Shown here piece by piece: positions 6,308 to 40,065 of a DNA stretch of 64,000 bases. Within the stretch, counting starts at the first letter, position 1. Each line of letters starts with the position of its first letter. The stretch comes from Polytrichum commune. Its lineage: Eukaryota > Streptophyta > Polytrichopsida > Polytrichales > Polytrichaceae. The stretch is taken from the NCBI GenBank assembly GCA_950295325.1, contig OX485806.1, forward strand, positions 43,030,001-43,094,000, written 5' to 3'. The notes beneath the pieces were generated by a model, which saw nothing but the letters and a program-made list of their open reading frames with translations, made no database searches and was not told the DNA's origin. The translations under genes and the position numbers were made by a program.

Positions 6308-6311
6308 TAAT

Positions 6312-6330
6312 TGGTGCGTCCGCCGGGAGC
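6312..6330 (+). other. Primer-binding-site region
   Basis: TGGTGCGTCCGCCGGGAG begins four bases after the 5' LTR. It resembles, with several mismatches, the tRNA-Asp-type primer site used by some plant gypsy elements. The position is right and the primer identity is inferred. The 900-base leader from here to 7217 has no other feature that I recognise. Confidence 0.5.
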
Positions 6331-7216
6331 GAAGCGGAAGGTAGTTATAAGACTTGGAGGCGACTAGGAGACTTGGAGGCAACTAGGAAAAATTGGAGAC
6401 ACAAACTTGAGAGAAGGGAAGGAGCACCCGAAACTCGGTAAGTATTCTCTCTTTGGGTTACATTTGAATTCATTGTATTTCAACTATTCCTTGGAATGAA
6501 TTGCATTGTCAATTACGCAAATTCATTTTTGAGGAAGGAGCGCGGCGAAGGTACGTCCTCAACCTTTTTGGGGATTTGCTAAGAACTTAAAAGGAACCTA
6601 TAACCGAGTAGCTCATTAAAACATTAGAGGGTAAATTCACCTTAGGACATTGAACTTTGACACTCACCTCGGGGTGAGTCTCAAAGTTTTGGGAGTTGTC
6701 ATTTCATGCTCTAGATTAAATTAATATTTCACAAAGTTTATGGTGTTGTTACATTGAGTCACGATTGAGGGGAGTGCTAACTCACAGGGGGATGCGATTG
6801 CTCAAGGTATGTTTATTTCTTCAAAGTGAACTCATTAACTAATTAAGGAATGCCTTTTGTACTCGTGATTGTTGTTATCCGTTGTAGAGGGTAATTCCCG
6901 AATTGTGGATGGTGTGAGAAGTTGAAGGGTGAAGCCTCGACTTTTAACATAATCTACTCGGAAGGTCACCCCCTCACAATCGGTATTGTGGTGAGTGTTA
7001 ATTTGCGGGAAGGTGCGGAGGTGATGCTCCGACTTAACCAAAAAATTAACATGAACATGCCTATCCCCTATTGGGATTCTTTCACCTAAGTGGGCTTGCA
7101 GGTTCTTTTCCTCACCTCCTAAAAAAATTATAACCACACCAAGACAAGTGAAAATATTAAGAGGGGAATTGCTAGGATTATGTGTGGTCAAGTGAGGGTC
7201 GATCGATTCTTATGGA

Positions 7217-12619: not shown

Positions 12620-12836
12620 AAGCTTGAATTTCCGGCGAAATTCAATGCGGTATGGTTAGGACCTTACCTTGTCTATGAGGTCTTTCCTAATAATTCAATT
12701 CAATTGGAAACGTTGAATGGTGAGCTCTTTCCTACCCGTACATCGGGAAGTAGATGTAAGGAGTACCGAGCTTGACTAGGCAACTTACCCTTGGAGCAAG
12801 AGATGTTTGGATTCATCCCCCGATGGTCGCCAATTA

Positions 12837-14858
12837 TGTGAGCCCAAAAGGGTGCCCACATTTAGTCTTAGACCCTTGAAACGTTAGTTGATGCACTTTG
12901 AAGTAGCATGTTACTTCACAAAAATATAAAAAGAGTGAAATGTTAGTCTTAGAAGTACCATGTTGTAAGCGGCTAGGATGTGAGTTGTTATTGTGTTTTT
13001 ACCTTCGGAAGGATTTGAGTGAATGAGGATAGGTAAGGAGAACTTGGATTGAGTAGTTAGTGAGTAGGCTAGTACAAATGGATGGAGACAACCAAAGTGA
13101 CTCAAGAGGCAAGTGCATTCGAATTGGGATGAATGGAGGATCACATGGAGCGCACAAGTGGACCACCTCATCATGGCCACTTAATGGGGAAGGCCCAAAG
13201 AAGAATGCAAGGTGGAGGATAAGCAAATTCTCAAAGCACCAATCAAATCACGAGTTAAGCATCGTGGTTTGAATTAAGTGGTGAGCGACGATTTGGGAAA
13301 GTAAGGGGAGAAAGTTATGGCGGCGGAAAGCGAAGGAGGCTAAGTTTGGGTTGAAGCATCCCAAGTTTGGTAAAGTGTGGTAGGTAGAAAGCCAAGGCTA
13401 GTTAAATGTTCGAATTAGGATCCTTGTTGATCATTTGAGGGAGGAAGGCTTAGAAGATAGGATTGGCGCCTACTAAGTAGGAGGAAATCTCAAGGGCTTA
13501 TCGTGAATTAGAAGGAGAACTTGGATTGAGTAGTTAGTGAGTAGGCTAGTACAAATGGATGGAGACAACCAAAGTGACTCAAGAGGCAAGTGCATTCGAA
13601 TTGGGATGAATGGAGGATCACATGGAGCGCACAAGTGGACCACCTCATCATGGCCACTTAATGGGGGAGGCCCAAAGAAGAATGCAAGGTGGAGGATAAG
13701 CAAATTCTCAAAGCACCAATCAAATCACGAGTTAAGCATCGTGGTTTGAATTAAGTGGTGAGCGACGATTTGGAAAAGTAAGGGGAGAAAGTTATGGCGG
13801 CGGAAAGCGAAGGAGGCTAAGTTTGGGTTGAAGCATCCCAAGTTTGGTAAAGTGTGGTAGGTAGAAAGCCAAGGCTAGTTAAATGTTCGAATTAGGATCC
13901 TTGTTGATCATTTGAGGGAGGAAGGCTTAGAAGATAGGATTGGCGCCTACTAAGTAGGAGGAAATCTCAAGGGCTTATCGTGAGCCTTGAGGGTGCTCAC
14001 CCCCTCAAGCTTACTATATAATCCCTCATTCTTCCCTCACTCATCCTCTCTTTCCTTTGTGCTCCAAGGCACCCCACGAGTTATAAGTGTGGGTGTGGGA
14101 AGCCATATTGGAGCACATGTGTGTGCTTAGTTTTTAGTTTGAGAGCCAAGGCTTGTTAGCCTTGAAGAGGGCTTGACCTCTTGGTAGAATTAGTGTTGAC
14201 GTGAAGGATTTTAAAGTTAATTCATGATTCCAATTTGTGGTACTTAAAGTTCATGTTTTGAATACACGTGGTTGTAAGTTCCATGTTTAAGAGTTGAGCA
14301 CTTGATGTTGTGATGAGTGCAAAAATATACTTGTGTGGATTAGTTAGTCTTAGTGAAGTTAGGAAATTCTCTCTCCCCCTCTCCTCTCTAGGATTTTAGG
14401 ATTTTAGGATTAGAGAAGAATTGTGTGATTAGAAAGGGGTTGTTAGTAGAATTAGGGAAATTAGGTAGGAAGATTAGTTAAGGGCTTGAATAATTAGTGA
14501 GGTAGTTGGGGATTACAACTACAAAGTTGTGGGTTCATGAAGGAGCTGGGTTTATGAAGGAGCTGGGTTTGTTTAGTTAGAAAGTAAAGAGCTGGGTTTA
14601 TGAAGGACCTGGGTTTGTTTAGTTAGAAGCTAAGGAGCTGGGTTCATGAAGGAGCTGGGTTTATGAAGGAGCTGGGTTTGTTTAGTTAGAAGCTAAGAAG
14701 CTGGGTTTATGAAGGAGCTAGTTAAATCCAAGACCACTTGAAGGGTGAACCTTGCACTATGGACTCATCCAAGTCCAAATCCAATACCGCGGAGGAATGT
14801 GAGCCCAAACCCACTACTCGGACTACGGACGCTTAAGGGTGGGGGGTTTGGCCTCACA
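12837..14858 (+). repeat. 3' LTR (2022 bp) with internal duplication
   Basis: It has the same ends as the 5' LTR and is followed directly by the target duplication TTACC. It is 477 bp longer because the segment from about 13035 to 13506 is repeated at 13512-13983. A TATA box is at about 14012-14020. No clear polypurine tract precedes it; the bases just upstream read CGATGGTCGCCAATTA. Confidence 0.95.
13035..13983 (+). repeat. 477-bp tandem duplication inside the 3' LTR
   Basis: The copies start at 13035 and 13512 (AAGGAGAACTTGGATTGAG). They are joined by a 5-base filler, ATTAG, between ...CTTATCGTGA and AAGGAG. The second copy matches the 5' LTR at sites where the first has private differences (GGGGAAGGCCC versus GGGGGAGGCCC; GATTTGGGAAAG versus GATTTGGAAAAG). 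Duplication after integration is the simplest reading. Confidence 0.9.
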
Positions 14859-16954: not shown

Positions 16955-19900
16955 ATGCCCCCCAAGAAAAGACCTGGAGAACGATGGTTCAAGCCGGCAC
17001 CAGACGCGATCTGGCAGGAGCACGAAACTCCTAAAAACCAATCCTACGTAGCAAAAGAAGACCTTGTAATTGCATGGTCCTTTCTTGTAGTAAAGGCAGC
17101 TCAATTCAAAATCCTCCTTGTTTTGAAGGTTGGCACGGAGGAGCAACACACATGGGATGCTTTGACGGGATGGGAGGTGGCATCAGTTCATGCTCTAGGA
17201 GAGCACGTTGACGTCATCCTGGAAAACTCTTCTCTGGAAAATGTGCACATGTTCATGCATGAGCAAGCCGAGCCATTCGATCCGGTATACGTGAAGGAAT
17301 CCTGCGCTGAGCCAGACATTGTTAAACCGGATACAATCTTCATAGATGCGATCATTTCAAACACGAAGGTTGCAACCAGGTTCACTAAACTTAAGCAGGC
17401 AATCAACGCAATAAACAAGACCCAGCAAAGCAAGTCAAAATCTCAACAAGCTGTGAGGCGCAAGGCGACTGCTGAAGAGGGCGCAGGGTCGTCAAGACCT
17501 CAAACAGTGAGGAAGCCCCGACCGGTTCCAGCTGACTCGAGGAGAACAACACCTACGGCAACTCCTGCTGATAGTGAAACACCGACGCCATCACAAAGCC
17601 GGCAGACGACACCATCTAAGAGGCCGAGAGAGTCAGTATCTGCCATGACAGATGAGCCTGTTTCACCGGAGCTACGTATGCCCAAGCCCGGGGAAGGAGT
17701 GGAGCCATCGGAGATCCAGAAAATACTCAACAATTTCGACACCAAGTGTTTACATTATTTTTTCATGGGCAGAGAATTCAAGTTTGATGTCAACATCGCA
17801 CAATGCCACCTAGCGCCACCAGAGAAGTGCGTTCGGGCAAAGGAAGATGCGTATGTTGATTGGTTAATCGCCCAGATGGTGAGCGACCAGTTTAAACATG
17901 ATAGGCAGACTATTGTTGTCATGCCTCAGGGACACAAAAGAATGCCTACACCGGATATGTGGCCTTCTATAGAGAAAGGCGATTTTTGGCTGATTGACGG
18001 TCAGCACAGTGTTGAAGCTTCAAAGAAACTTCAACTGATGACGGAGTGGAATGATCCTAATGGTCTAAAGGAAAAATTGAAGGTATGGAAGGCATTGGTC
18101 GTGTGGTCGGACGACGAAACCCGGCTGAGCGATATCTCCCGCTATTTCAACATGAATAACAAGAAGCAGGCATATCAAGCTTCTTGGATTAGGAACATCA
18201 TGGCATCGCGGGATGTGTGGGAGTTCTACGGCCGGCCTCCCAAGGAAAGGGAGAATGCAAAAGACAAGAATCCAAAGTGGGAGGTGAGCATTGTTTCTCA
18301 AACAGAGTTTGGGTCGCTCGACCCAAACTTTGGGTTTCTTCATACAGTTTGGGTCGCTCGACCCAAACTTTGCGTTTCTTCATACAGTTTGGGTCGCTCG
18401 ACCCAAACCTCGTGTTTCTTCATACAGTTTGGGTCGCTCGACCCAAACCTTGTGTTTTAGTTTGTGTTTGTCTACGCAGTTTGTTGTTCATCATTTTTCT
18501 TCTTTGTTTGGAAACAACATATTGAGAATTAACACGCATTCTATGCTCTTGTGCAGCTTTTCAAATACCAAATGATAAACAAGTTCTCCTCAATTGACAA
18601 TTCAAGTCACAAGCAAAAGAAGTACAATGAGCTAAGAGGAGAGATCTACTTGATTACATCATCCGACATGGTTTGGCAGAAGTGGAAGACAGTGTTTGAG
18701 AAACACGAGACAGGGGATCTCATGGATCCTGACACATGCAACCTCTTCAACTCGTCCTCTCGATTCAAGGCGATGAAGCCTCTCATGAGAGAATTCTTTA
18801 GAAGTCTGCAGGGTCTTTCGGAGGCGGAAATGGGGAAGGCGGCAACGCACATCTTGCACAACAACCCGACCCCTAAGAGATTTTGGGTGTACCCCAAAAT
18901 AGTCTTCACCAAGCCGAAATCCTTTGTTCCTTCATGCTACACAATGAAGGAATGGGCGGAGAATAGGAAGAAGAAAACAACGATCGTCCAGGAGCTGCAG
19001 AAGCTAATCCCGGAAAAGAACATTTTTGTCGATGACGAGGTGAACGAGGTGAACTGGAGAGCGTTCAAGGCTGAATACAACTTCACCAGTGCATCCATGG
19101 CAGCTCTGATCAGGGAGGCAGGAGAAGACTTCCTAAAGTCAAAACTGGTGAAGGGTGGGAAGAACCTGGCTCTTCCAGAACACTCGACGCGTGCCTTCTC
19201 AAACTTTATAAAGGAGAAGAAGATTGTAAGTTTTGAGGGGGATGCGCATTTCAACCTTGTCGCTTTTGACCCTATTAAAATCCAGGGATGGCCCGGCCTT
19301 GATTCCAGGAAAGAAATACGAGTAAGAGCAGCGGACCGGTTCCCCTTTGGTATAATAGACTTCCGGAGCATTCCTGGGAGTACGTTTGAGGGCACAATGG
19401 GTACACCCTTCTACGAGCCCTTCATGTCGAAGTTCGTGGAGTATGCAAGCCCTAAGCTTAGGGAGGTCGATATGTGGCTGTGGATAGTAGAGGATAGGAG
19501 AGCAGAGCAGGTGTATGAAATTGTGAGGAAATTGCAGCCTGAGTATGCGGTGTCTAAGTCTCACTACATTGCTGCACCGGCGGAGGGGGTGTACACGACA
19601 CTAAAGGACAAGAAAACCAAAGTCATGAATTTGTTGTGCTTGTACTTTGTGTTCAAAGCAACCTTGCTGAAGGTGGAGAACCACCCCATAACCCGGATGC
19701 AGAAACTATTCCAAGTTCCAGAAGGTCTGGGCGCAAGTAAGTCCCTCTACGACGAGGCAAAATATGCCATATACCATTCGGACGAGTTGCGGATGGAATT
19801 CTATCTCCGAATAATGAGGGCCTTGACGAGAAGAGGGGACTGTATATTCAACGTCTTCGGCGGCACCAAGCCCGTCTTCGCTGGCATGGTAAGCTCCTTA

Positions 19901-21622
19901 CCATAATTGTTTTCATAGTTTGGGTCGAGCGACCCAAACTAACACCGATGCTAGTTTGGGTCGCTCGACCCAAACTAACACTGATGCTAGTTTGGGTCGC
20001 TCGACCCAAACTATAACCTTTGCAATTGTTATTAGGTCTTGTATGTACTTCCCCTTTTCGGTGGAATCACATGTTATGCCATATAATAACATCTGGTGGG
20101 ATTTCTGCAGATGCTGGGGCTGAACGTGTACAGCTATGTAGACCTTAATGACATCCAATTCTACAAGGCCCAAAAATCATTGGCGAAGAAGATGGATATA
20201 CTAGACTGGATCCCTGGGAGCTACGCCGAGGAGACTGTTGAAGGGGGTGAGAGCCCGCTGGATAAGGCGAGGCGTGTCAACCCTGAAGAATTGGCCATAA
20301 AGGTTCCAGTTGCTGTACCAGAGCCTCTGGTCCAAGTGCATCCAGGCACATCCTCTCGGCGACCGCGTGACGAGGAGGGGGAGGAGGAGGAGGAGGATGA
20401 GGAGGTGGAAGAGGAGGAAGAAGAGGCTAAAGTGGAGGGCGAGGTCGAAGAAGGGGGAACAGGCTTCACTCAGGAATCTGAAGCCCCTCAACGAAAGAAG
20501 GCAATGCGGGTAGCAACTCCACAAAGTAAGTTGGTGCCCGTCCTGACGGTTGATGATGCCCGCGACATGTACTCCAGGGATGCGACTGCCGCGTTCAGGG
20601 AGAGGAGGAAACTAAAAGGCAAGAAACTCTATGGCGACTATGCCATCGAGGAGACAATTGCCATTAGCAGCGAAGACGAGGACGACATGGAGCTCGCGAA
20701 ACGGCTCAGGTCGGACCCTCCATCTCCAGATGCCTTCGCAGTGATGGTGAAGGTGAAGCCGGAAGTCCTCACCGTGCAAGAAGCCAACGAGAAGATGTTA
20801 AGGGACGAAGAACAACGCGTCCGCTTGCAAAAGGCCGCTGCTGAAGAACCCTCAGTGCGGAACGAAGTGGCAGAGCTAAGGGCTCTCTTATTGGAGCAAG
20901 AGCGACTGCGGGCATTGGCGCAACCTCCAACTAGTGCGGACTTGATCACGCAAGTGATTCGAGGCATGTGGGCGCAGGGTTTGGTGGTGGCTCCCCCGGG
21001 CTCATTTCCACACTTGCCCCCCGGCTTCCCTCCCCAGAACATTCCTCCGCAGCCCGTGCCGCAATCCTCCTTCAGTTTTCAGCACATGGTTCCCCCCCAC
21101 GTCCGTCCGTATCCGCCGGTTCAACAAGCGGATGACCCCAATATATGGCGCCTTCCCGGGTCTTCTAGACCTGTGACCCCCCCACCACTTCGGCCGCCCC
21201 TGGTGATCCCCCCACCCCATCAGCAAGACGACCCCCACATGTTTGGGTCGTCCGACCCAAACCCACCCCCCCTTACAGTGCAACAAGGCCAATCTCATGA
21301 TGCACGAGAGTTTGGGTCGGCCGACCCAAACCCCGTTACCGCTCAGTCTTCAATGGACCAGCATGGGTCTGAAAAAGACACACCCATGCCTGATGTTGAA
21401 GGTCCTCGAGGGCCTGGTGATACCTCTACTCCTATCCCAATCGATGAACCTATGCATGATGCACATGCGGAGGTTGGGTTAGGAGAAGGTCCTGACACTG
21501 AGCGCTTGCAGGAGAGGGGTGCTGACATCGTCGGAGAAGGCGGTGGCAAGAGAGAACGACAAGCGGAGGCGGTGGAGGCTTCCATGGCGTCCAGGCATGA
21601 CCAGGGAGAGGTAATACACTGA
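16955..21622 (+). CDS. ParB/Srx-like + permuted DNA-methyltransferase-like fusion protein
   Basis: Three phase-0 exons fit well: 16955-18283 (443 codons), 18557-19888 (444) and 20111-21610 or to the TGA at 21622 (~500). GT-AG sites are GAG|GTGAGC, GTGCAG|CTT, ATG|GTAAGC and CTGCAG|ATG. The ATG at 16955 directly follows a CAG acceptor. Exon 1 has a basic N-terminus, a Ser/Thr/Pro linker (~165-240) and a ParB/sulfiredoxin-like segment with LIDGQHSVEASKKL (~346-358). Exon 2 has FGIIDFRSIPGS (~705) where an N6/N4 methyltransferase would carry DPPY. The motif-I-like GDCIFNVFGGTKPVFAGM then runs across the intron into MLGLNVYSYVDLND, the permuted (beta-class) order. Exon 3 has a Glu-rich tract (~975-1003), a helical segment and a Pro-rich tail. 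Prokaryotic and phage proteins join these same domains. The missing DPPY suggests no methyl transfer. Function in the plant is unknown. Confidence 0.68.
18307..18448. repeat. Four 22-bp palindromes at 40-bp period in intron 1
   Basis: Copies start at 18307, 18347, 18387 and 18427, all with centre CT. The 18-bp spacers are near-identical (TTTGCGTTTCTTCATACA type). The reading frame runs through them by chance because the repeat encodes FGSLDPN, but the donor GAG|GTGAGC at 18283/18284 places them in the intron. Confidence 0.9.
19918..20011. repeat. Three 22-bp palindromes at 36-bp period in intron 2
   Basis: Copies start at 19918 (centre AG), 19954 (CT) and 19990 (CT), with 14-bp spacers TAACACCGATGCTA / TAACACTGATGCTA. 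They lie within the intron between 19889 and 20110. Confidence 0.9.
21241..21331 (+). repeat. Two palindromes inside coding exon 3
   Basis: Copies at 21241-21262 (centre TC) and 21310-21331 (centre GC) keep both 10-base arms perfectly. They are read in the same frame as FGSSDPN and FGSADPN within the Pro-rich tail of the ParB-MTase-like protein. Confidence 0.85.
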
Positions 21623-22099: not shown

Positions 22100-23859
22100 G
22101 GATCGGAGCATAGCGTCGCGGCTCCCCGCCGGGCCTCTCCAAGAAGCGAGGAAGGTAGCGCGATGGTCCCCCCCATTTTACCCGTTCCACCTTTGCCGCC
22201 TAAGACCCGGTTCCTGGTGTTAGACCTCAACGGGGTCCTCGTCCAATGCGTTCATTGCCCGAGGACCCCCACGGTGGCCTTTTGCAAACCCGAGGACGCG
22301 AATTACGACGGGCCGCCCACGTTCATAAAGAGCAAGCTAGTTCACCTCCGCCCGTGGCTTCGGACCTTCCTCCAGATCGCCCAACAACGATGGTGGGTGG
22401 TCGTGTGGAGCTCCATGAAGGCCGAGAACACCAATGCAGTCGTGGAGTTCATCTTCAAGGGCATCGAGCCCCCCTGCATGGTCCTAGCACAGGAAGCCTG
22501 TAGAATATTGTACACACCGGACGGCAAAGTCGTCAAAAAACCAAACAACCCCGCTTCCCCCCAATACCTCAAGGTCTTGAAGCCCATTTTTTGGGACCAG
22601 CGTCCGTCATTGATAGGTGTCCCCTACGACGTCCGTCCCACCCGGGAGAACACGCTCATGGTGGACGACAGCGCCGCAAAGAACATGTTGAACCCGACGG
22701 CCAACTTAATAGTTTGCCCTACGTGGACGGTCGAGAAGGTCCGGGACCGATTTTTGTTAGACCTTAGTAAATACCTCCAGGCGCTTAGGGGAAGCGGACT
22801 ACCTGTAAACAATTTTGTTAGGAATAATCCGATAGGCGAGAGATACTTGGATCCACGCGAGATACTTTGTACAGAGAGTTGTTCTCTCACGCGAAATTTA
22901 ACAAGCTCATTTGAGGCAGCACGTGTGTGTGTGTGTGTGTGTATGCGCCCGCCCACTTTGTGTAATATATGCTTCATATGTATCTTGATTTTCACGCGCT
23001 CTAGCAAACCCTCTTCCTTTGGGTTTTGTTTCGTTTCCTTTTTTGCGCCAGCGTTTGGAGCCCTCGATTGACATCGTCAGCGAGTCAGAGTTGGGGAGCT
23101 TCTTCTACGAGACCGTTTACGACGCCGCGTCAACCATTGACTACTCCAAGGAGCCTATTGACGCCGGCGTCGTCGATAGCCCCCCACCCAAGCAAATCTT
23201 ACGGCGATCTCCGTCCCCGTCGCCGCTCAAGGGCATAAATCGCAAATGCGTCCGGACATCCCCCTCTCGGCCCGGCGGAAGTATTACACCTCAACGGCGG
23301 CTGCGGATGGACGCACGGCCAACGAAGAGTGGAACCCTTCCTATTCCTTTGCGGGACGCCTTGCCCCTCCTTGCCAACTCCGATGGGAACGCCCCCGGTG
23401 ACAAGGTGAACCCCCCCCCCCCTCTCTAAAACATGGTTAACCGCGCATTACAATCATTTTGCACTTAAAAAATGATCGTGTGACACGTTTGGGTCTTCCT
23501 CCCTAAACTAACACATGTGGTCTTGCAATGACGCGTTGCAGGTTGCTCCCACCCGTAAACCTATGCGGTCTAGTGCGTCCATCGAGTTCGAGCGTATGTA
23601 CGCCATGACCAGAAATGCGAGACAATCCACTTCATCGTATTCGAATTCTTCGACGTATATTTCGGGCGGCCGACGGACTCCAAAATGTCTTATGGATGGC
23701 GGTCACCCCAAGAATGGCTATAGTCGCGGGGCGGAGATTTTCAGGAATGTTGAAGCAATGCGAGCAAAAGAAGCCGCAGCAAAAGAAAAAGAGGCAAAAG
23801 AAAAAGAGGCAAAAGATAAAAAAGCAAAAGAAAAAGAGGCAATCTCCGAGGCTAGATAG
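22100..23859 (+). CDS. FCP1-like HAD phosphatase domain protein, separate or fused
   Basis: Exons: 22100 (or ATG 22163) to about 22924, 23052-23405, 23542-23859, all compatible with phase 0; the first donor lies at the start of a GT run and is the least certain. The HAD/NLI-interacting (FCP1 homology) domain shows RFLVLDLNGVLV (nucleophile Asp kept; second Asp is Asn, as in many plant FCP1-like proteins), WWVVVWSSMKAEN (motif II) and ENTLMVDDSAAKNM (motif IV). Such domains act on phosphoproteins in the nucleus; the substrate here is unknown. The C-terminus is basic/Ser-Pro, then a Lys-Glu-Ala repeat tail (AKEKEAKEKEAKDKKAKEKE). The 21 codons before ATG 22163 are open back to a good acceptor (TCCACAG, 22099). 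They are in frame with exon 3 of the upstream gene if it splices at GAG|GTAATA (21610). A fused product of ~1885 residues is therefore possible. Confidence 0.62.
22923..22944 (+). repeat. (GT)n microsatellite at a splice donor
   Basis: About ten GT units directly follow GCAGCAC. They offer many possible GT donors, so slippage could change the splice site and the frame of the FCP1-like gene. Confidence 0.8.
23488..23509. repeat. Decayed 22-bp palindrome in last intron
   Basis: GTTTGGGTCTTCC-TCCCTAAAC keeps the general shape of the palindrome with several substitutions, inside the intron 23406-23541. Confidence 0.55.
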
Positions 23860-26668: not shown

Positions 26669-26720
26669 CAAGAATGCTACAATGTGAGCGGTGAGCGGTG
26701 AGCGATGAGCGGTGAGCAGA
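26669..26720 (+). repeat. Left terminal repeat, GTGAGCGG iterons
   Basis: ATGCTAC is followed by five GTGAGC-type units (GTGAGCGG, GTGAGCGG, TGAGCGA, TGAGCGG, TGAGCAGA). It is inverted relative to 38119-38169. Confidence 0.65.
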
Positions 26721-29700
26721 TTTCGTGAGCAGAACATTATAGTTTAAAACTCCATTTAACGAATGTTAGGCCCCTTATGACCGTGGATTTTGCACATATT
26801 TCAAGTTTAATTTTGTAATTATAAGGCCTATATTTGTGGAGTGGCCAATTTCTAGAACCAAAAAGTTTCTTATAATTACCAATGAGGCCCTATGACCGTG
26901 GGAAAATGCACTATGGTTGATAAGATGGTGGACTAAATTCTCTTTGGAGTATGACAACCACCAAGTGTAGTGTGATTTGAGAACAACGAAAAGATGCATT
27001 CAATGAGATAATTGGAATATTGAAAACCACACCACACTTTATAAATCCAAATACCAATCAATCAAACATGAGGTTGTCACTACTAGATTCCCTATCTCCA
27101 AAGATACTCCCCTCATGGCCGCCCTCATCTGAAGTGGAATCTAAGCTATGGCACTCATTATCCACCTCTGCAAAAAGCTCGAAGAAGTCTATGGCACGGG
27201 GGTCATAACGTGGAGACGGGGTACTAGCTTTGGTAGGAGAAGGTTGTGCTGCTAGCACCATCGCCATATCATGGGCATAGATTGGCAAAGTGAATCCCAT
27301 GGTGGGAGTACCAAACACATCTGCTCCAAGGCCAAGTCTGAAAAGAAGCATGAAAATTGTAAGAAAGAGGATGGAAAGTGTAAAAGCTGAGTGGACAAGG
27401 AAAAGAAGCAAAGAAGGTCATCATACTCACTTACTGCGAGGACTCTGGCCTCGATCGCTTCAAGGCCGGAGGCCTCTTCTGCGTGCCTTGTGAAGCCTGT
27501 GTGGAAGCAACAACAATGGATGGAGCCTTCACCGGAGGCTTAACACTCTTAAGTGGCTTAAGGACACGGTTGAAGATGTCCTCGTCCTCCTCGAGAGCAA
27601 TGATATGGCGCCCAAGCTGCCTGCATGCATGGACAGAAGTCCATGTTGCGAAAGAAAGGTTAGCAAAGATAAATAAAAGGAAACGTAGAAAATGAAAACC
27701 AAGATATGATGGCAAGTGAAGTAGGACATACCAACGCCTGCATTAACGTCAACCACGACCTGCCCAATGTCTGTAGTGGCCATGATCAATGAGGACATGA
27801 AAGAAATATCTTTCTCACGGGGACCACGCCAAGCTTTCGAGCCGTCCATGAGAGGAGTTGTGGTATAATTCATAATGGCATCATCCATGTCGAGCTCAAT
27901 GCCAAGAGCCTTGAGTTCATTGGCATCGCGAAGGCAAAATGACGAGTGCCGGGGCCGCTTATCAAGGTCGGATCCGATTGTTTTCGTGGCACGAACAAGT
28001 AGTACAACTTGGAAGAGGTTGGTGGTCTTGTCCACATTCTTAGCTGAATGGAGGTGAAGACGGTTGACTCCCAGCCACTCCTTGAAGATGGTGAAGCCAA
28101 AAGCAGGGAAGTGGTCTTGAATGCTCTCCCTGAAGTCACCATTGTGAACTGGATGAAAGAGGAGGAGAGCTCCATCGTCATGGATGATCTCGTCCGCGAA
28201 ATCGAAGAGTTCACCAAGGAAATCAGAATCTAGTGCATTCCAGGAAGGAACACTATGTGCCGGATCGGATACATTGGGCACGGGCAGGTTCTCTGGGATG
28301 TCAGCAATGACAAGATCAGCCATGCCCACATCTAACCTCCTGACGCCTAGAGCTCTCCGTGTATGGGAGGGTGGAAGAGAAATGATGAAGTCTGAAACCA
28401 CCTAAAAATGACGACGCTGATGGAGAATGAAGGCATTCAAGATGCATTCTGAAACAACCGGAGGAGGCCTGGCAGATGAAAGAACGGGCGGTGGAGGCGG
28501 CCTCGACAGAATAGGTACCTGACTAAGAGTTGCAGTGGATGCAACAACCGCTTCAGGTGAAGCAGGGGGGTCATCCTCCACAGTCTTGAGCTTCCTTGCG
28601 CGTTTCTTCAGTGATGACTCGTCTTGGGTTGCACGCTTCCTCCTCTTGGACTTCTGTGTGTTGGCCTCATCGAGAGTCGCAACAACCTCATCCGCCTCCG
28701 AAAGCTGACTGTCAAGGAGAACAACCTCATCGCTTTGAGTAGGAGGCAGTGGAGGCTCTCCACCGGAGAGTCAAATCTTCAACGCCGCCTCCTCATCCGG
28801 TTGCCACGTCCTCTTACACTCCAAGTACCAACAACACTCCCGGAGATGCGGGAAGGAGAAGTTGCGCTTTTGAGCCGGGGAAAATATGAATGTGGGCGAA
28901 AAAGAATCTGACCATGCGTCAAGAAATGGAGGGAGCTTCTTGATAGCCTTCTTCTTGAAAAGCTCGTGCTTGATGTACCTTGACAACCAAAGAGTGAGGC
29001 CAATCAGCAACTTAGAGAACAAATGGATTGAAATAAATGAAGAGAACAAAAGATGTCCCAACTAACGTACCGACAGATTAAGCGCTTGACAATGTAACTT
29101 TGTCAGCGCCTTTGATATCCTTCCACCACGTCCCCTTTTCGTAGATATCTGACCCTGAAAAGTGACCAGTGAACGCCTTATCCCAAAGGCAGATTCGCCA
29201 CTTCTCCAAATACTCCGGCAACGAATCAACTTCCACGTCTCCATCAAGCCCACCCAATGCAGTAAGTATATCGGGTAACTCTTTGACCGCAACATCCTCT
29301 AGCTGTGAACAAATTCAAGGCCAAGATAAGAATTGGCACAAAATGAAGAGTTGAAAGGTAAGTAAGGATAAGGAGGATAGACGTACCCCTGCCCAGAATG
29401 CTGCTTTATTGAGCCAAGGTTTCAAGCTGTCCTCGCTTGCAAGACTTTTGGGAAACCGGATAGCTTCACGATTGAATCTTCCACTGTTCCACCACTTTAG
29501 CCAACGAACTTTATACTCTGGCTCCACAGCAGCCGTGGCAATGAGTTGCAATTTCTCCAATGTCATCTCAATCTTTTGAGAATGGTGGGCGCTATAATGC
29601 CTAGTAACCTGAAACAAATGACATCAAAATAAAAGGCGGAATAAATTTGATAATTACTCATGCAATGAATGCGAACAATACCGAAGGTATAATTTCGAAG

Positions 29701-31079
29701 GTGGTGACAAGGAAATTACCTCCTCTAAGAACTTTTTTCCAAGGGCCGGGTTTGCGATCGATTGTTGCTTGTTAAACTTATGTCCAAGTTCCTCAGTCGT
29801 CTTCTTTATCACATCGTCCAATACTTCATTCAACCCCTTCCCTGACTGCTCCTCTGGAGGCACTTCCTCCTTGTAGATCTGGGCTGCCTCATCTACCGCA
29901 TCGGCTATCTCTTGCTGAACATATATTCTTAATTGTTAGATGATGACTATAAGTAATGAATGCAAAGTAGGAGGTTGAGGAATTTGGAGTGACTTACATT
30001 GAAAATGAAGGATACCATAAGATCCTGGGTCAGCGGGTACCAAGGGCACTTGGGGCCTCTGCTCTTGCACGCTTGGTATTGCTCCTCGGTCAATAATGGC
30101 TGGTAGTAGCTAAGATCATACGAACCGTATTTTTGAATGCGGTGTAGAGTGTGTACGAGGCTAGTTTTAACGTGCGCGGTCTGGTTAGCCCTGTTCCGGT
30201 TGACACAAATACCATTAGATGCAAATCAAAAAATGAAGGAAAAAACGATTTGAAAAAATATCATACTTACTTGTTGATGTCGTGCATTGCGTTAAGGACG
30301 TCCCCACGCCCACCCGTTGTGTCGAGGACGACACATTCTGGGCAACCATGCTTCTCATACCATAGTGCATCGTCCTTGTGATCTGATTCAATACACTCTT
30401 TCCACGCAAGCAATCGGTGGTTACTATCGTACACGAAGAGCATACATCCACTGAGGCTCATCAAGTCCTTATCCGCGCGCAAAAGATACTCAAACTTATC
30501 ATTTTCTGCATTCCATAGCTCTCCCCATTCACGCATGTCTTTCGCAGAAATGAATCGATTATGTCCAGACTCATTTGTAGTAGACACATACAAAGTGGCA
30601 GACCCAGCTCGTTATCCAAATTGAAATGCCGTCATGAGCTTTGTAACGTCGCTGCGCAGGGTTGGGCGAACCAATGGTATGTGAATCAACCTACAGAGGG
30701 GGATTCTCATAGAGGACTTTTCGACCGGTTGTATCCTCATGCCCTCAACAACTGAAAAGCTATCTTTCTTTAAATTATGACGAATCCGATACTCCATTGC
30801 ATGAACACCCACATCCGACTCTTCAGGTGAGCCGCACAGTGCCATCCCGGGTGTCTGCGGTTTGCTACGACCAGGTGTAAGTCCAATATTTTCAGCATAT
30901 GACAAAGGAGACCCTTGCTCCCTATGCTCCTTAACACTAAGGGATGACCCAGCGCCAAGGAGAACCCCAACTTCCAATGACTCTCCATCTGCAACCATCT
31001 CAACGATCTCCTGAGAATCAATTACTTGCAAACATAAGAACCAGTTAGATGAACAAAATATGCATCATAATGAAAACTT

Positions 31080-32560
31080 TAGAAGATTCTGAAGTTGGCT
31101 CCCTGGGAACACACCTCTCCACAGCGCAACCACTGCACCTTGATACGAGGTGAATATGGCCACTAAGTCCCTAAACCAACCACAAAAAAATCAATCGCGA
31201 GGTTCACATTTGTGGCCCCCTAGCTCTCACCTCGAACCTCACTAAGATAGCATCAAGGCACCCCTAGAATAACAACCAAAATTCAGATGATCACATCTCA
31301 TTTGTGCCCCCTAGCTCTCAACTAAAATTTCACTAAGAGAGCATCTACTCACCCCTAAACAAGCCCCCCTATATGCACATGATCACATATCATATGTGCC
31401 CCCTCAAAACCTCATTCACGAGCATCCAGCCACCAAAATAACCTCACTAAGTGAGCATCCAGCCCACAAAAATAAAAAACAGGCCATCAAAAATAAAAAG
31501 CGAGGTGCACATATCTGCCCCTAGGAGTCTGTCGGATCCGACAGTGCCCCGAGCTCTAACCTCACACCTCACTAAGGACCATGCAGCCACCGTACAAAGC
31601 CACCAAAAATCAGATAATAACCTCACAATTCTGCCCCCAGCTCTAACCTTCAACCTCCCGAAAATAAAAAACGAGGTGCACATATCTGCCCCTAGGGGTC
31701 TGTCAGATCCGACAGTGCCCCAGCTCTGAACTCAAAGAAAAAGAAAGCTGAAGAACGAAACGAAATGAAACGAACGAACGAACCGAACCGAACCGAACCG
31801 CACCACCCGGCCCGCGCCCGCTCCAGCTCCTTCTCCTTCTCCGTCTTTTTCTTTCTTTAAGGATGCCTAATGGGTTTGAGGCAAGGGTTATGGGTTTGTC
31901 GCTCACAGACTTTGCCGCTCCGCTCACACAGACTTCGCCGCCTACAGACGTGGCCGCTCACAGGTATCACAACTCACAGGTATCACAACTCACAAATTTC
32001 CCAACTCAAAGAGGCCGGCTACCTCACAAATCACACAGGTACTACGACGACACAACAACCCTCTCACAGAAGTAACAACAAATTTAGGGTCCAGGTGCTT
32101 GTTTGTGAAACCAACAACGAAAATGGAACCTCCACTACTACGAAGTCAAAGCTGATTTAGAGAAGCAAGGGGAGACTTAAATCACAAGCCACTCTAAGTG
32201 AGCATTTATCCACCCTAATAGGCCATCAAAAATCAATTAGCAAGGTGCACATATCTGCCCCCAGGGTTCTGTCGGATCTGACAATGCCCTTAGGCTCCCA
32301 CTTTGAACCTCACTAGGACCATTCAGCCACCGAAATTCATATGATCACCTCTCATCTCTGGCCCCCAAGCTATCACATCGAACCACACTAAGAGCATCCA
32401 GCCACCCCACAAAGCCACCAAAATTTTTGCCCCCCCAACTCTCACCTTGAACCTCACTAAGGAGCCCTTTGTCAACCCTAAACTAGCCATCAAAAGTCAT
32501 TTGCGAGATTCAAATTTCATCCCCCAGGGCTCTCACCTCAAACCTCTCCACGGGGCGACC
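31080..32560. repeat. Degenerate tandem repeats filling the first large intron
   Basis: Units contain CCTCACTAAGNGAGCATCCAGCCAC, TCTGCCCCC, AGCTCTCACCT and GGTGCACATATCTGCCC in rotating order, with period roughly 80-170 bp. Three units carry a 16-base palindrome CTGTCGGATCCGACAG at 31529, 31700 and 32269 (the last two with changes). Confidence 0.75.
31768..31805. repeat. (CGAAC)n-like microsatellite
   Basis: GAACGAAACGAAATG is followed by CGAACGAACGAACCGAACCG, then GC-rich and CT-rich sequence. On minus it would read as (GGTTC)n and a purine tract, inside the intron of the ParB-MTase-like pseudogene. Confidence 0.7.
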
Positions 32561-33112
32561 ACTGCCCTTCCCTCGAGTCACTCCCCCGCTCCAAATCGTG
32601 GCTGCAACCCTGCATGCCTAGTTCAGAGGTCCGTTGTAATGCGGGGAACGATGGTAGGCTACTGCCGCGGCAGTCTTGTTCCTTTCCACTTGTGACAGTC
32701 TCATTGTGATGTCGAGTGCTTCGACGGGCCCACACTTGTTGCTGTCTCTAGCTCACAAATACAACCCTTAATTTCTAGTGCATATATGTTAACATCAACT
32801 TGAGGTTCATACCTGGGTCTCGCAAATTCTCGATAGATCATGTGATATCTCCACTTGTCTGGTCGTACCCACTCCAGCTTCCTTGCTAGCAATGTCTTCA
32901 CCACTGTGAGTCTGGCTTCTCCGTATACGAGACCTTGACCGTGTGCGGTCTGGGGAGAATTCCAATCCCTTGACTGTGTTGTTTAAGCTATCATATCGTT
33001 GTTTCGGTGGTCTCATCCTAGATGCCCTTAATTGCTTCCTGCTTGAGAAAAGTGCCTTCCTCCTCCTCTTCGCCTTTGGTATCACTAACTCTATCGGCGA
33101 GGACCCTGTCAT

Positions 33113-33882
33113 GTAACTGAACCGGTTTCACAAATTCTACACTTCCCTCCTCTGTGAACATCACTCTATCAATGTACGTGTCTCGCCTTTATTACATCCA
33201 CACTAATATTCCATCCCATAATCTCGTTCACATAATGTCGATATGTTTTTATTACAGTCAAGTTGCTATAAACATATAAGGAATCATAAAAAAAAATTTA
33301 AAATAATGAACACGGATGTCTAATAACATTTATAGAAATAATCCAGAAGTAATCTAAAAATGAAGAATATCATGTTTTATAAAAATAAAAATGATAGTAC
33401 AAATGATAATACATAATTCAAACTAAACTAATTGAAAGAAATATTCTGTATAGCCATACCTTGACGATACTCTTCCAACTAAACTAACCTATTCTAGCTT
33501 CTCCTTAAAGGTTAATGCTCTTCCCTTGCCCATTTCAATCCTCCACTCCAAAAGAAACACTTTACTTTAGGGTGTCCCTTATATCCACTAAATGGTTCAC
33601 GTGGTCTCTGGTGTATTTATAAGTACGTCACTCGGCATCCAGCCTCATGTTTGTTATTAATATATCTAATTTGGATTGGCATATGATCATGACTAACTTA
33701 AGTAACTGCTCCACTGCATTTTCAATTTTAATTCAAATTGCTCCGCCGTCTTTCATAGATTCCATCTTGCCATGGTTTTCTAATCACATCATTATATACA
33801 CCGCCCCACTTTCAATTCACTTTAAGTCCATTGCCCATTTGGCCACTACCTTCTGTGAACTCGCATTTACAATTCTTCTACA
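33113..33882. promoter_or_regulatory. Divergent intergenic region of the transposon
   Basis: 770 AT-rich bases lie between the two divergent start codons (33112 on minus, 33883 on plus), so both promoters are expected here. I see A/T-rich words but no TATA box that I can assign with confidence. Confidence 0.35.
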
Positions 33883-36800
33883 ATGGCCACCATCCGAGCA
33901 CTGCACCATTCCATCCCGCTTATGATCCCTCTAGGAGATGATGGTCTAGCCAAAGTCGCAGAGTCGTTCCTTAGTTTGAGGTTTAGATTCCACCCAGACC
34001 CAATTCATGTCGAGGAAGAAGTCTTTAATGCTAACGGTGATTTGAGTCACACTGTCCTTCAGATATCATTTCGCAATGACGATGGTAGAATTTGGTTCTT
34101 GCTCCTTGGAACGTACAAGGCCATAGGCGTCACCGAGTTGGATATGGCCACCACAACTGTGTTGCTAACACCAGGTGTGTCCCTTACGTCCACCACGCAG
34201 GTTCTTCTTCTCGCGACGGTCAAGAAGGAGCCCGGCATCGAAGAGGTTACCTTGCTCAGTGACTCTGATGATGATCTGCCACCTGCCTCTGACGTTGCCT
34301 CACTTACCCCACCTCCATCGCAAGATCAGCCCTTCATCAATCCTCTAAGGATTCCACAGTCGCCTACTGTAAGTCAACCATCTACTTCCAGACCCCCAGT
34401 TCACCCAGGTGTTTCTAAAGATCGCCCGAGTGTTGTCCACCACTTGAAATTGCTTGCAACCCGACCAGGGTCCAAGAACATACTCAAGAAGATTGATTAT
34501 GAATCTGTTAGGCATGAGAAGGTTGACTACCTCCCATCCGTTTTTGACGGCGACAACCTCTTTGAAATCCCTCCTCTCGGAGCTGATGCTCCCCATTCCC
34601 ATGCTAGACTCATGTTCGGAATGGACAAGCGTTTCGACGGTCATGCTTGGTGTAGGACAAAGACGTCTAATATTACCAATGATCTCGACTTGACCTTCCG
34701 GTCCTCATGTTGTGTTGGCCATCTCCGTTGTGATAACAAGGGATGTGATTATCTCAACCGCCCCAATCAAGCCACTGACGTCAACAAGACCGAATGGGAA
34801 GGCTGTACCCCCTCACCCTACTCCGTAGGAGCTGATCCCCCATCTGGGTCATCTCTCGTTTGTAAGGTCTGTAAGACACTACCCTATTGTCTTGATACTT
34901 GCCAAGCTAAGATGTACTATGTTCTTGGCAAAGGTGACATGACCCGTGCATGCATCCATATGGGTCATCACCATCACCCCGTTTCGCAAGGTGTATGTAG
35001 AGAGTCTAAGGTCGAAATTCATGATCTCATTGGTAGAGAGGTTGAGAGGACTCCCACCGCCACCAACTCTGCGATTGCTTTGGCTGCAAGTAAAGAGTTC
35101 CTTGCCAAGTATCTTCTACGCATGGGTGATGATCCCAATAAAGTTATGGACCTTGAGTCCATGAAGTTTGTCATGGACAGGTACCAACACCTCAGCACCC
35201 CTAGTATTCGAAACACAGTCACTTCCTTCAAGCGCATTGGGCGAGGGGGGAACATTGACAGCATCACCGGACTCAGAGGTCATAGGAGTTGGCCCTATGT
35301 GCAAAAAAACAAATTCCCAGGCCAAGGAAAATTGTTGGAGAAAGTCTATGTATTCAAGATGTCCGAGGTGGGCCCTGGGTCAGGAGTTGACCTTGTCAGG
35401 AGAATGCAACCACATGGTGATTTGCAGGATGCTTGGGTCATGTTTGACCATGTCAAGCGTGTCAAGGGGTGGACAACCATGGCTTGCCATGTCTATGACT
35501 CGGCCTACTGCCGGGTTATGACTATTGCAGTATGTGATATGTAGTCTGAGGATGTCACAGCGCAGAGCCTTCTTTGGCATGGGCTCAATGAAGTTATGCA
35601 CAGACATGGCATTGCTAAAGTTAACTTCAAAGGGTTCATGGCGGACAGTGCACAAGCCAATTGGAATGCAGTTAGGATTATCTATGGCAGTGGTGATCCC
35701 AAGGTTCCTATGGAGTCTCGCGAGAGGACATGTCTATTGCATTGGACAGTGTCTATGGAGCGCCACACCGCCACCCACATCAAGCCCGACCTCCAACAAC
35801 AACACAAGTTGTTATGCAAGTAGTACAAGGATGCCAAGACTCCCGAGCAGTCCGAGTCCTGTTATCTTGCCATCCGGGCATGGTGGCTTTCCTCTGGAGC
35901 AGCATCCGAGGAAGGAATCAAGGACCTTGATACATGGCTTGCATTTTGGCACTTTCATTACCGTCAATGGGGTGGTTTCATGCAACTAGTGAGTGTACCA
36001 TCCACTTTTTATTTCGTTTTTTGGTGTCAATTTTTTTTTGCCTATTAAGCCTTTTTTGTCATATGTTGTACATCTCCATAATACCAATATCAGTTTAGGC
36101 TTTTAGCCAGATTTTGTGCAAAGCGTACTCACTACATTTTATTGATTTCTCTCATAATTTCATAGATTCCGAGTTGGCGGAGATGCCATCTTGCAACCTC
36201 TCTGAGACAGTCCACAACAAATGGCTTCAGCAGTCTGGAAACCGTGGCTCTGATCTATATGTTGCCACCGTGGATGATTTCGTGAGGGTGTTCATACAAT
36301 GTACTAACTACTACGCCTACTTGAAGGGTGATCGCTCTGGTACTGGCCCAAGAAAAGAAGAACTCCGCCTTCGTGCTACACAACGATCCGGTGACGCCAA
36401 GAGAATTGTTGCAGCCCTCGAGCACAGGCCTGGAGCAGAGCATTGGTGCACCCGCAAACCCCAACTCGAAGGAGAGGAGGTCTTTGGCACCACCAAGCGC
36501 AAACTTGATATGCCCCCTGGTTCTGATCAGGATTCACATAGACCTGACAAGGTCAGCTTCTTTCATCCACAAGTGAGCACTAGGTCAACCAAGGCCCGTA
36601 CTGATTCTGCCACACCATCAACCCTGCCCCTAACACAATCACCCGAGAAAACGATTCCACAACGGGTCACCACGTCAATAACATTCAGGAGACCCACTGC
36701 GATGTCCCCAAGTGGCACATTTCTAGACTGCCCAAGACTTCCGCCAAGGCCTGCTTCGCCATGCAAGCTCGCACAAAGACCAAGTGCACCCAGAAGATCG

Positions 36801-37549
36801 TTCGGCATGGTAAAAGTACTCCAGCTCCTATGTACACTGGCTACATGCGCGACTACAAGAAGAACAAGGAATTCTTGACACAGTTCTTCTTCTGCAACGA
36901 CGACATTGAAAGATGTGTCAAAGGCACTAGGAGGAAGTGAGTGCAGTACCGTCCGGATGTCCCGGACGTCTGGCCTGTCCTCACTGGGACAAACCTCACT
37001 CTCCAAGAGGTTTTGGCCCTTGAAGAAGGGGGATTCCAACTTCAGCAGCGTCAAGATGCATGTGTCACCCAGAAGACTCTTCGGCCACTCCTCCAATGTT
37101 GCCTCATCCATGGCCGAACTCCCTACCCCGGCCCAAGCCGATCAATACCCTACGCTCAGGTTTGGAAAGAAGATTCGGCGCAGTAACAACGGACCATGCA
37201 TCCAACAACGCAACAAGTGGGAGTCCGCCCTCAACGTCAACGGACAAATCACCTCCGTTACAATGATACCTCACCTAGGGATCGGATGCATCATTCTCTT
37301 CCAGTCCCGAAAGAAGGCTAAGGTTGAGGAGTACCGTATCACTATCAGCACCTTCCCGTCGTGCACATGCCCGGATTTCATGGAAATGTCAGCAAGAGCA
37401 CTTGGGAAGCGGCGCACTTGGACTTCATCTTCCGTGTGACCTGCAACTTGGATCAATACCAAGAAACTTTCATCCATGCTCCGAGCCTTAGTTTCAATGA
37501 AGTGAAGCACCTCCTCGAAAGTGGCATCATGAAGCATGTGGGACCTTAG
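33883..37549 (+). pseudogene. SWIM-type (MULE/Zisupton-like) transposase, decayed
   Basis: The ATG at 33883 opens a frame of 553 codons. Residues ~1-200 are variable. A cysteine cluster follows (CCVGHLRCDNKGCDYL ... CKVCKTLPYCLDTC, ~285-345), then CIHMGHHHHPVSQGVC. The RNase H-like core begins at MTIAVCDM and, after an in-frame TAG (35542-35544), continues in the same frame with FKGFMADSAQANWNAV. A second TAG lies at 35821-35823. An intron near 35987-36165 leads to NLSETVHNKW...; frameshifts follow before TISTFPSCTCPDF, a SWIM zinc-finger start (37346-37380), and HLDFIFRVTCNLD in a shifted frame. DDE cores followed by SWIM are typical of MULE and Zisupton/KDZ transposases; I cannot decide between them by eye. 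A relative lies at 63225-63990. It is inactive because of stops and shifts. Confidence 0.72.
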
Positions 37550-38118
37550 CGTGGATACCTATAGGAGCTAGGTTGCCCCCCCCCCTTATTTATAAGTTCA
37601 TGCTAAGTATTTCCTATTGCGTTGAGTATACCATAGAATGAGTTCGCTCCGAAAATATCGCTGATATATCAGACCTATCATTATCTACATGATTTGAATT
37701 GTATTCGTTTCTAAATATTTATAAAGGTTTCTAAATATTTATGGGTCTCTTCTTCCAACGGTAGTTTTAGATGTTATTGAATGGTACGAGTTTTGCTACT
37801 TGCTTGAATGCTTGAATTTTATGACTTAGAATTTTCTCTTACGTTGTGACCTTAGCCTTTGATTAAGCGGCTCTCACCATAATATGGACAGTAAAAAGTT
37901 CCCTGGTTTAATTAGATCATGTCAACTAGTCTCTCTAAAAGGTACCCTAAAACAAAGTCTCTGTCCTTAAAGCCCTCAAAATTTGCACGGTAATAGGTCC
38001 ATCATTTTTACTAAAAAAAGAGGTCCCACGATTTTTCTATTTCTATTTCTAAATTTAGAAAATTTATTACTATAATAGGAAAGTGTTGACTTTTTTCTGC
38101 TCACTGTAAGCAAATTTT

Positions 38119-38169
38119 CTGCTCACCGCTCACCGCTCGCGTCCCACCGCTCACACGGTAGCATCGTTG
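38119..38169 (-). repeat. Right terminal repeat, inverted GTGAGCGG iterons
   Basis: The plus strand reads TCTGCTCACCGCTCACCGCT...CCGCTCACACGGTAGCATCGTTG, the inverse of the left end at 26669-26720 with small changes. Confidence 0.65.
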
Positions 38170-39545
38170 TCTGGAGCGGTGAAGGACCTATCGGTTCGGT
38201 GGTTTTTTCTCTCTTCGTTTTCTTCTGGGAGCGTCTGCGGAGGGGCTCTCCTCGGCAGGAAGGGCATGCTGGACTTCTGTGGGCTAATGGAAGCAATCAG
38301 TTGGGATCAATGAGGTTGAGTAGATAGGGAAGGACGCGGTGAAGAGCTGACTGTGGCTGATGAAGCCACAGCCGAATTGATATCAGGGTCGACATTGGGG
38401 AATACGGGCTCGGAAGAGCCGGGGCTTCGAGGCACGAAATTCAATCTGCCAGGTGGGTAGTTGATGAGATCATAAGGAAAGAATCGAGGGGGCAAGCTGA
38501 GGTCTGGAAGCAAAGTGAGGATTAGTCTGCACATGGAATCTCCAGGCGAGCAGGTCGGAAGTGGAATTGAATTGATCTCTGAATCAACTGTGTGATGCAC
38601 AACAATTTCGATGAGCATTGGTCCAGTTGTTAATTTGGTAGAGATCTGATTGACAATCACAAGGGCTACTAAAATTTGGGACTAAGGCCACCGGTCAGAG
38701 AAGACAGGAGGAAAAGGTATTGAATAGATGCCCAAGTTTAGTGGACTCCAAGTGAAGAAAGCAGGTTTGCTGGCCGATCAAGCATCTCAGTGACTCGGGC
38801 TTCACTTCTGCGGTCTGGGTTCCACTGAGACGCAAGTCCAGGGCTGAAGGGTTGCTGCCGAGGCGAGGGGGATGACTGAGATATAGGCGCAGGGCTTGGG
38901 AAGCAGAGGATCACCAAAACAGAGGCTTGCAAAGGCTGCTGGTCACTGCAGTCGTCGAGGAAGCCCAACTGAAGGTTGACGGGCACTGACGGGTGCCTTG
39001 ACAGACCAAACAGCGTAGATTTGGCCGCAAGGTAGTAAGATTGAAGGCCGAGGGTTGAGATCTAGGGGTGCCCAATGACTTGGGAGACTGGAATTAAATT
39101 GTAAAGGGAACACTTATTAGGTTGTTAGGTTTGGGTTGGCATTTAGATGCTAATCAATGTGGTTGGAAGCGTAGTGATTAAGGGGAAGGGTAATGTAGGT
39201 TGAAAAGGGGAGGTGGATTAGTGTAGAGGGAGAAGGGGGTGATTAAGGAAGGAGAGGAAGTAGTGGGCAAGTGGGCAAGTGTGCATTTGTTCCAGTTAGA
39301 GGTGTTTAGGAAGTGATTGTGTGATTGTGTGAAGGTAAACTGGACACAAGGCGTGGAGTATTCTTAAATACTGATTGCCTTGTGCCCCATAATAAAGAGT
39401 GTGACTTTCCTTGACGAATTGAGAAAATGAGGTTAAGTGTGCCTCAACATGGGAGGAACAAGAGGAAGGCATGTGAGCTCTAGACTTCTACCTGGACTAG
39501 GACGCAAGCAAGGGTGGGGGTTTAGGGCTGACAGGGAACAAACCC
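38170..39545. other. No recognisable gene
   Basis: Two minus-strand frames (38660-38307 and 38986-38738) rich in Ser/Pro have no motif I recognise. The sequence is less AT-rich than its surroundings. It may be an old gene fragment. Confidence 0.35.
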
Positions 39546-40065
39546 CGACATCACTATTTTTGAGAAATGGATCAAAGATGCAGTGCATAGGCACCCTGTG
39601 GACCCCAACAATGCGGATGACATGGACCGAGTGTTGCTGTGCAGCAGACCATCACAACTAGCCACGCGATACACGAGGATGAAGGCCTACGGAAACTACT
39701 TTCATGTAGAGTACCAGCAATCCGCCACGCTTCGCACTTATAACAGCGGTGTGGCCTCCGTGTTTCACATGTCCTCCATGGAGTCGGGATCAACAACGTT
39801 GAACTATGTGGGAGTACTAAAGGATATACTAAAATCGAACTATGGCCCATTTCGTACCCCTATTATATTTTTTAGGTGCAAGTGGATGAAACAATGCGAC
39901 AATCCCGGTAATCCTACTTATGTAAGAGATGATGTCACAAAATACCGAAGATGTTGGAGCCGTTTATTTTTCCCAGCCAAGCAATACAAGTATTTTGGTC
40001 AGAGGAAGTGGGCAGAATGGGATGGAGAGTTGTGTTGGCGAAGGAGGCACGCCAAGAAGACATGA
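39546..40065 (+). pseudogene. CACTA (En/Spm) element fragment, DUF4216-type
   Basis: The frame contains GNYFHVEYQQ, LRTYNSGVASVFHM, LNYVGVLKDILKSNYGPFRTP, FFRCKWMKQ and NPTYVRDD. These match, from memory, the DUF4216 region at the C-terminal side of plant CACTA transposases (the sequence after the DDE core). No upstream transposase core or DUF4218 region is seen, and the frame degrades after VRDD, so this is a truncated copy. Confidence 0.7.

Follow-up and report, generated by a model that had tools for sequence, protein, structure and literature searches.

Positions 26669-38169 of the window (the whole 64,000-nucleotide stretch of Polytrichum commune DNA that was analysed) hold a degenerate member of a transposon family that is present elsewhere in the genome (408 Mb, 64 contigs). 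The element is bounded by inverted arms of 52 nt each, which are 83% complementary and lie 11.4 kb apart, and encloses a transposase gene running from 33883 on the forward strand and a divergent multi-exon gene on the reverse strand (∼33109 to 27058), referred to here as the partner gene (Table 1). The end motif ATGCTACNNTGTGAGCGGTG (with up to three mismatches) is present within the window only at both element ends; shuffled controls gave a mean of 0.02 matches, and two matches were reached in 0 of 100 shuffles. An earlier note on this DNA had read the region as a DNA transposon whose inverted ends enclose a transposase and, divergently, a methyltransferase-like gene, and that reading is supported. 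The best candidates for a target duplication of this copy are no better than random pairs, with none above background. A solo LTR at 38168-39550, which would split the right end, was considered and dropped, as no matching duplication could be seen by eye.

Table 1. Features of the element in the window.
Feature	Position	Strand	Remarks
Left terminal inverted repeat, with (GTGAGCG)n	26669..26720	+	Arm comparison; related left ends elsewhere in the genome
Partner gene, last exon	27058..27337	-	
Partner gene, exon completing the methyltransferase domain	27435..27642	-	
Partner gene, methyltransferase exon, with motif IV-like DIPEN and motif I (DVNAGVG)	27733..29010	-	Stops at 28771-28773 and 28402-28404
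Partner gene, further exon	29387..29608	-	89-93% identity in the other six allele-a whole copies
Partner gene, exon 3	29998..30189	-	
Partner gene, exon 2, with ParB-like DxNHR motif (by eye)	30276..31049	-	Stop at 30612-30614
Repeat array in partner-gene intron 1, 30-nt unit x8	31186..32552	+	
Palindrome A, copy 1 (perfect)	31529..31544		
Palindrome A, copy 2 (1 mismatch)	31700..31715		
Palindrome A, copy 3 (2 mismatches)	32269..32284		
Partner gene, exon 1	32813..33109	-	
Transposase, main exon	33883..35990	+	Two stops, at 35542-35544 and 35821-35823
Transposase C-terminal part, SWIM-like CxC within 37170-37379	36099..37549	+	Spread over several frames
Right terminal inverted repeat	38118..38169	-	Arm comparison; related right ends elsewhere in the genome

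The CxC of the transposase SWIM motif is present in the window and the remainder of the motif is interrupted by a frame change; the SWIM stretch is 90-96% identical to that of the window in all eight other whole copies described below. Neither the window transposase pieces nor ten relatives gave a Pfam match. An alignment of 28 sequences contains conserved D, D and CxxH positions, which we take to be MULE-like. The main exon has 106 protein relatives among the matches listed and is stop-free in three of the six copies checked for stops, the window copy being one of the six.

As separate unspliced exons, the partner gene gave no profile match for methyltransferase or ParB. After intron removal, the predicted domain matches Pfam PF01555 (N6_N4_Mtase) with an E value of 1.1e-6 and 29.2 bits, above the cut-off of 26.7, over residues 168-222 of 232; it also matches CcrM 6pbd (E 4.9e-6, residues 10-221) and the NCBIfam CcrM model (E 1.8e-7, yet far under the model's own cut-off). 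These sequence matches confirm the methyltransferase identity of the spliced domain. Motif IV lies ahead of motif I, presumably the order of beta-class methyltransferases, and the cofactor motif is retained. The usual catalytic motif of these methyltransferases is (D/N/S)PP(Y/F/W). It is present in none of the 32 relatives (of 49) with a recognisable catalytic region; all 32 have DIPEN, DLPEN or variants in its place, DIPEN or DLPEN accounting for 23. Because the catalytic region is altered in this way, methylating activity of the partner protein is doubtful, and binding, not methylation, may be how the domain acts. An AlphaFold model of the methyltransferase exon was poor (mean pLDDT 36.8) and was set aside. 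No relatives were found in viral contigs; for phage relatives, one search gave none and the other a single weak match (E 0.8). The gene had been labelled ParB-MTase in the earlier note. The methyltransferase half of that label stands, but the ParB half goes back to a short DxNHR-type motif in exon 2 read by eye, had no ParB profile match in several profile searches and is unproven; two relatives match DUF6551 weakly (E 0.024-0.027).

The partner gene in the window contains three stops, and its splice acceptor is unlike the one that the translations of two relatives, P0107 and P0108, imply. Owing to these changes and to the stops and frame changes in the transposase, the window copy is a dead element. 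Protein relatives have residues at four of the five stop positions in the two genes; these relatives came from open frames and show only that copies open at those positions exist. Many methyltransferase matches elsewhere in the genome hold one to four stops.

A genome search with the left end returned at least 67 matches (the best 40 of 274 candidates scored), with the right end at least 42 (the best 40 of 160) and with the methyltransferase exon at least 141 (the best 135 of 1482). Association was counted between 40 of the 67 left-end matches, namely those whose start falls in the first 38 bases (omitted were 26 inner pieces and a repeated match at one place), and 57 of the 141 methyltransferase matches. 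A methyltransferase-like match lies less than 6 kb inward on the opposite strand at 36 of the 40 scored left ends, 24 of the matches being close (at least 80% identity) and 12 ∼50% identical. The four other left ends have no such match within 6 kb, and two of them have one 18-19 kb inward; with only 57 of the 141 methyltransferase matches used, these misses may be overstated.

Ten other copies were compared at both ends, and nine have an exact target duplication of ∼10 bp. Eight of these duplications were the script's best choice (10 to 12 letters, some overlapping the first bases of the element), and the ninth (C3:35.66M) was recognised by eye beside both ends, where the script had put flanking repeats higher. 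The copy at C1:53.29M has none. Mutator-like elements (MULEs) make target duplications of about 9-11 bp, and the family combines duplications of this size with terminal inverted repeats. By eye, two copies sit in DNA resembling the transposase gene of another copy.

Eight whole copies were read, all with target duplications and between 12.9 and 29 kb long, some of them holding further insertions. The transposase main exon is 84-96% identical to that of the window in all eight (in two pieces in three copies), and the methyltransferase is on the opposite strand in every one. The earlier note had asked whether full copies always hold both genes, as is the case in these eight, which were picked by their ends, and whether they have matching target duplications, as is the case except in the window copy and at C1:53.29M among those compared. 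The pattern named there as speaking against the proposal, transposases bounded by other ends and never linked to the partner gene, is absent among the copies read, which were likewise chosen by ends.

Clustering at 75% identity or more gave counts of 42/49 for the methyltransferase versus 4/106 for the transposase among the matches listed, under different length filters. A comparison by eye of the lengths of the long contigs in the two match lists showed no equal pair and tied no relatives of the two genes together. Since these counts differ widely, the partner gene may also travel otherwise than with the element. About 20 methyltransferase copies with near-equal scores have three TAA stops each and, except for C4:48.70M, no left end among the best-scored left ends; they may travel differently.

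The partner gene occurs as two alleles with at most ∼50% identity to each other; the transposases next to them are 84-96% identical to that of the window. Allele a is present in six of the eight other whole copies, with a methyltransferase 91-95% identical to the window's. Allele b is found at C5:16.96M and C4:4.89M, where the methyltransferase shares 49-50% identity with the window's across roughly half of the domain and 33% across a different stretch; the transposase of both copies is 92% identical to the window's. ParB-like exons were found in all six other allele-a whole copies. One allele-b copy has such exons at 41% identity, 14-17 kb from its methyltransferase match, and these may belong to that copy or to a nested element; none were found in the other allele-b whole copy.

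Each allele is accompanied by a distinct palindrome. Palindrome A (CTGTCGGATCCGACAG, with up to two mismatches) occurs 3, 3, 13, 9, 12, 7 and 13 times in the seven allele-a copies (window included), mostly in partner-gene intron 1, with one occurrence in a later intron in five copies. In the allele-b copies the palindrome is B (GTGTCTCGGNNCCGAGACAC), with 22 occurrences in one copy and 21 in the other. Neither crosses over in any of the nine whole copies, and Markov shuffling, done three times per copy, produced neither. As both allele-b copies served to define palindrome B, its presence there is no independent test; the independent tests are its absence from the seven allele-a copies and the absence of palindrome A from the two allele-b copies. 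Eight more copies, four per class and picked before their motifs were seen, were then sampled as 4-kb slices, each taken at the same distance from the left end. Palindrome A was present in three of four a slices and none of four b slices, and palindrome B in none of four and one of four, respectively, again without crossing; of the four slices that hold neither, two contain three copies each of a third palindrome, C, described below. Totals, which are rough in that whole copies and slices differ in length, are 10/11 a and 0/6 b for palindrome A and 0/11 a and 3/6 b for palindrome B. In this small sample, the kind of palindrome in the non-coding DNA of the element matches the partner allele. 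The gene described in the earlier note as cargo is carried by the element, but as a regular part of it, with alleles that have DNA motifs of their own. Palindrome B is arrayed with a period of ∼234 bp, like a simple satellite, and the allele-a palindromes sit inside larger repeat units. Another palindrome, near the left end, occurs with both alleles.

A second gene in the window lies outside the element, with exons at 16955-18283, 18557-19888 and 20111-21622 that join in frame to give an open protein of 1390 aa. Its layout looks by eye like that of the partner, with a DGQH motif followed by a methyltransferase-like order; the methyltransferase-like part was recognised by no profile library used. 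Palindrome C (GTTTGGGTCGNNCGACCCAAAC, with up to two mismatches) was matched 27 times from 1293 to 21654 (0.00 expected). The matches are located upstream of the 16955 gene, in both of its introns, in its last exon and 3' of it, and also upstream of the divergent open frame 3-1178. Among the 28 window palindromes listed with arms of at least 8, this kind accounts for 22. The 16955 protein has 47 relatives, and in 28 of these the frame enters the intron by at least seven residues. Palindrome C is encoded in the intron-entering frames of 17 of the 28, in different reading frames, whereas a shuffled-tail control gave 0 or 1 of 200. The suggestion that the element would explain this second gene was not sustained: the gene is outside the element, a profile comparison detected no relation to the partner gene (shallow alignments, Neff about 2) and its palindrome is different.

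We consider it probable that the family is a Mutator-like cut-and-paste DNA transposon with an allele-specific, VANC-like self-recognition partner, the two parts being judged together. The partner protein would bind its own palindromes, perhaps through the ParB-like part, and would in this way recognise only elements of its own type. Recognition of its own palindromes is the most likely role of the partner. It would then most likely counter host silencing or switch on element promoters, as VANC does in VANDAL elements, although anti-silencing as the outcome is a tentative guess by analogy. It is also conceivable, and offered with similar reserve, that this is transposon self/non-self recognition by ParB/methyltransferase-like proteins, with at least three types, namely a, b and the 16955 family. 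Each type would read a long palindrome of its own, and protein and site would pass together, as one module, between elements with a common transposase.

The palindromes could instead be by-products, namely tandem repeats or small parasitic elements in the introns of a lineage that are tied to the allele by shared descent. The regular period of the allele-b arrays, the larger repeat units around the allele-a palindromes and the left-end palindrome common to both alleles all fit this explanation, as does the fact that a lineage inherits allele and palindrome together in any case. We nevertheless regard it as unlikely, because three partner types each have a different long palindrome, random repeats need not be palindromic and palindrome C recurs in the intron of 17 of 28 relatives of the 16955 protein in different frames. 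That the partner is an active adenine or N4-cytosine methyltransferase marking element DNA, with the palindromes as methylation sites, would agree with the retained cofactor motif of the CcrM-like domain and with the link between palindrome and allele; the absence of the usual catalytic motif from all 32 relatives with a recognised catalytic region and the length of the palindromes, which are unlike typical methylase sites, make it improbable. Gene capture is frequent in Mutator-like elements, the cluster numbers of the two genes differ and four of 40 left ends lack such a gene over the first 6 kb inward, but a methyltransferase-like gene captured once as passive cargo, with no role in the element, is very improbable given its presence in all eight whole copies and near 36 of 40 left ends, its two alleles in the same place and orientation and the key motifs retained across relatives.

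How transposons evade host silencing without causing genome-wide derepression is understood for few systems. If the reading of the partner as an allele-specific recognition protein is correct, the moss family would represent a second solution, apparently reached independently, in which a methyltransferase fold of bacterial type is combined with long palindromes. Its natural alleles would make protein-site co-evolution directly testable, and new sequence-specific DNA readers might follow.

Several known systems share parts of this arrangement. ParB-parS partition systems also have palindromic sites near the gene, and the short DxNHR- or DGQH-like motif is a further resemblance; unlike those systems, the moss protein has no ParB profile match and no partition role is expected. 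CcrM and other beta-class DNA methyltransferases match the spliced domain in sequence and in having motif IV before motif I, and differ from it in that the catalytic motif here is DIPEN, DLPEN or a variant and the gene is a multi-exon one within a transposon. Retrotransposons with captured C5 cytosine methyltransferases, described in dinoflagellates and charophytes in the accessible part of PMC5890265, similarly combine a mobile element with a DNA methyltransferase, but they are retrotransposons with an enzyme of the C5 class, whereas the element here is a DNA transposon with an N6/N4-type domain. Transposons are known that carry genes of the TET/JBP or SET kind (PMC12730594, accessible part). 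The fungal TET/JBP elements are likewise DNA transposons with a DNA-modification-type gene; they differ in enzyme class and in transposases, and the portion of PMC12730594 available to us describes no partner-specific palindromes. In the part of the literature that was covered, we found no description of a plant DNA transposon carrying a ParB or methyltransferase gene.

The VANDAL/VANC system of Arabidopsis differs in that the moss partner is CcrM-like with a possible ParB-like part and its motifs are long palindromes. The moss element has inverted ends, which VANDALs, to our knowledge, do not have. Pfam searches gave no match in the partner protein to DUF1985, which we take to be the VANC domain. 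The likenesses lie in the organization of the element: according to the part of PMC5735166 available to us, a VANDAL is a Mutator-type element with a transposase and a second protein, and VANC motifs are found in introns of both VANC and VANB and also in the region upstream of VANA. In both systems, short motifs specific to the family (in VANDALs) or long palindromes specific to the allele (here) are arrayed in the introns of the second gene and in other non-coding parts, and motif and protein change together (PMC5735166, same part).

The three-exon gene at 16955, which lies outside the Mutator-like element and is open over 1390 amino acids, is surrounded in the window by 27 matches to a 22 bp palindrome (palindrome C; 1293–21654), and the same palindrome is also present in the intron of relatives of this gene. 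The gene and its palindromes may constitute a second element, following the same logic as the 26669–38169 transposon and with a different divergent gene at 3–1178. Palindrome C also occurs three times in each of two 4 kb slices from further copies of the Mutator-like element, perhaps owing to nested elements of the 16955 type.

The end motif of the Mutator-like element, TGTGAGCGG, has two further copies on the reverse strand in intron 1 of its methyltransferase-like partner gene (31920 and 31954); beyond these and the two element ends, none was found in the window. Additionally, seven of the nine whole copies have one to four occurrences of a further long palindrome, with the sequence AAGAGGCCTCGGATCCGAGGCCTCTT or one close to it, at most about 0.7 kb from the left end. 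It accompanies both partner alleles (a and b); the window copy and C4:25.19M are the two for which none was listed.

Among the matches listed in the genome search, about 20 near-identical methyltransferase copies (near 475–486 bits) each carry three TAA stops. Nearly all lack a left end among the left ends scored, and they are possibly a separately amplified lineage.

Further features of the window, including other transposons
Feature	Position	Remarks	Pfam E value
Gypsy-type LTR retrotransposon	4763–14857	Nested between palindrome clusters	
NIF-type phosphatase gene	22163–23071	Directly downstream of 16955 gene	1.4e-15
Open frame	39583–40065	CACTA-like in appearance	
SWIM-type transposase fragment	63228–63884	Diverged; − strand; same family as that of the element	

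The target duplication of the Gypsy-type retrotransposon is apparently TTACC. The open frame gave no match to Pfam, and we take it to resemble a CACTA-type transposon protein.
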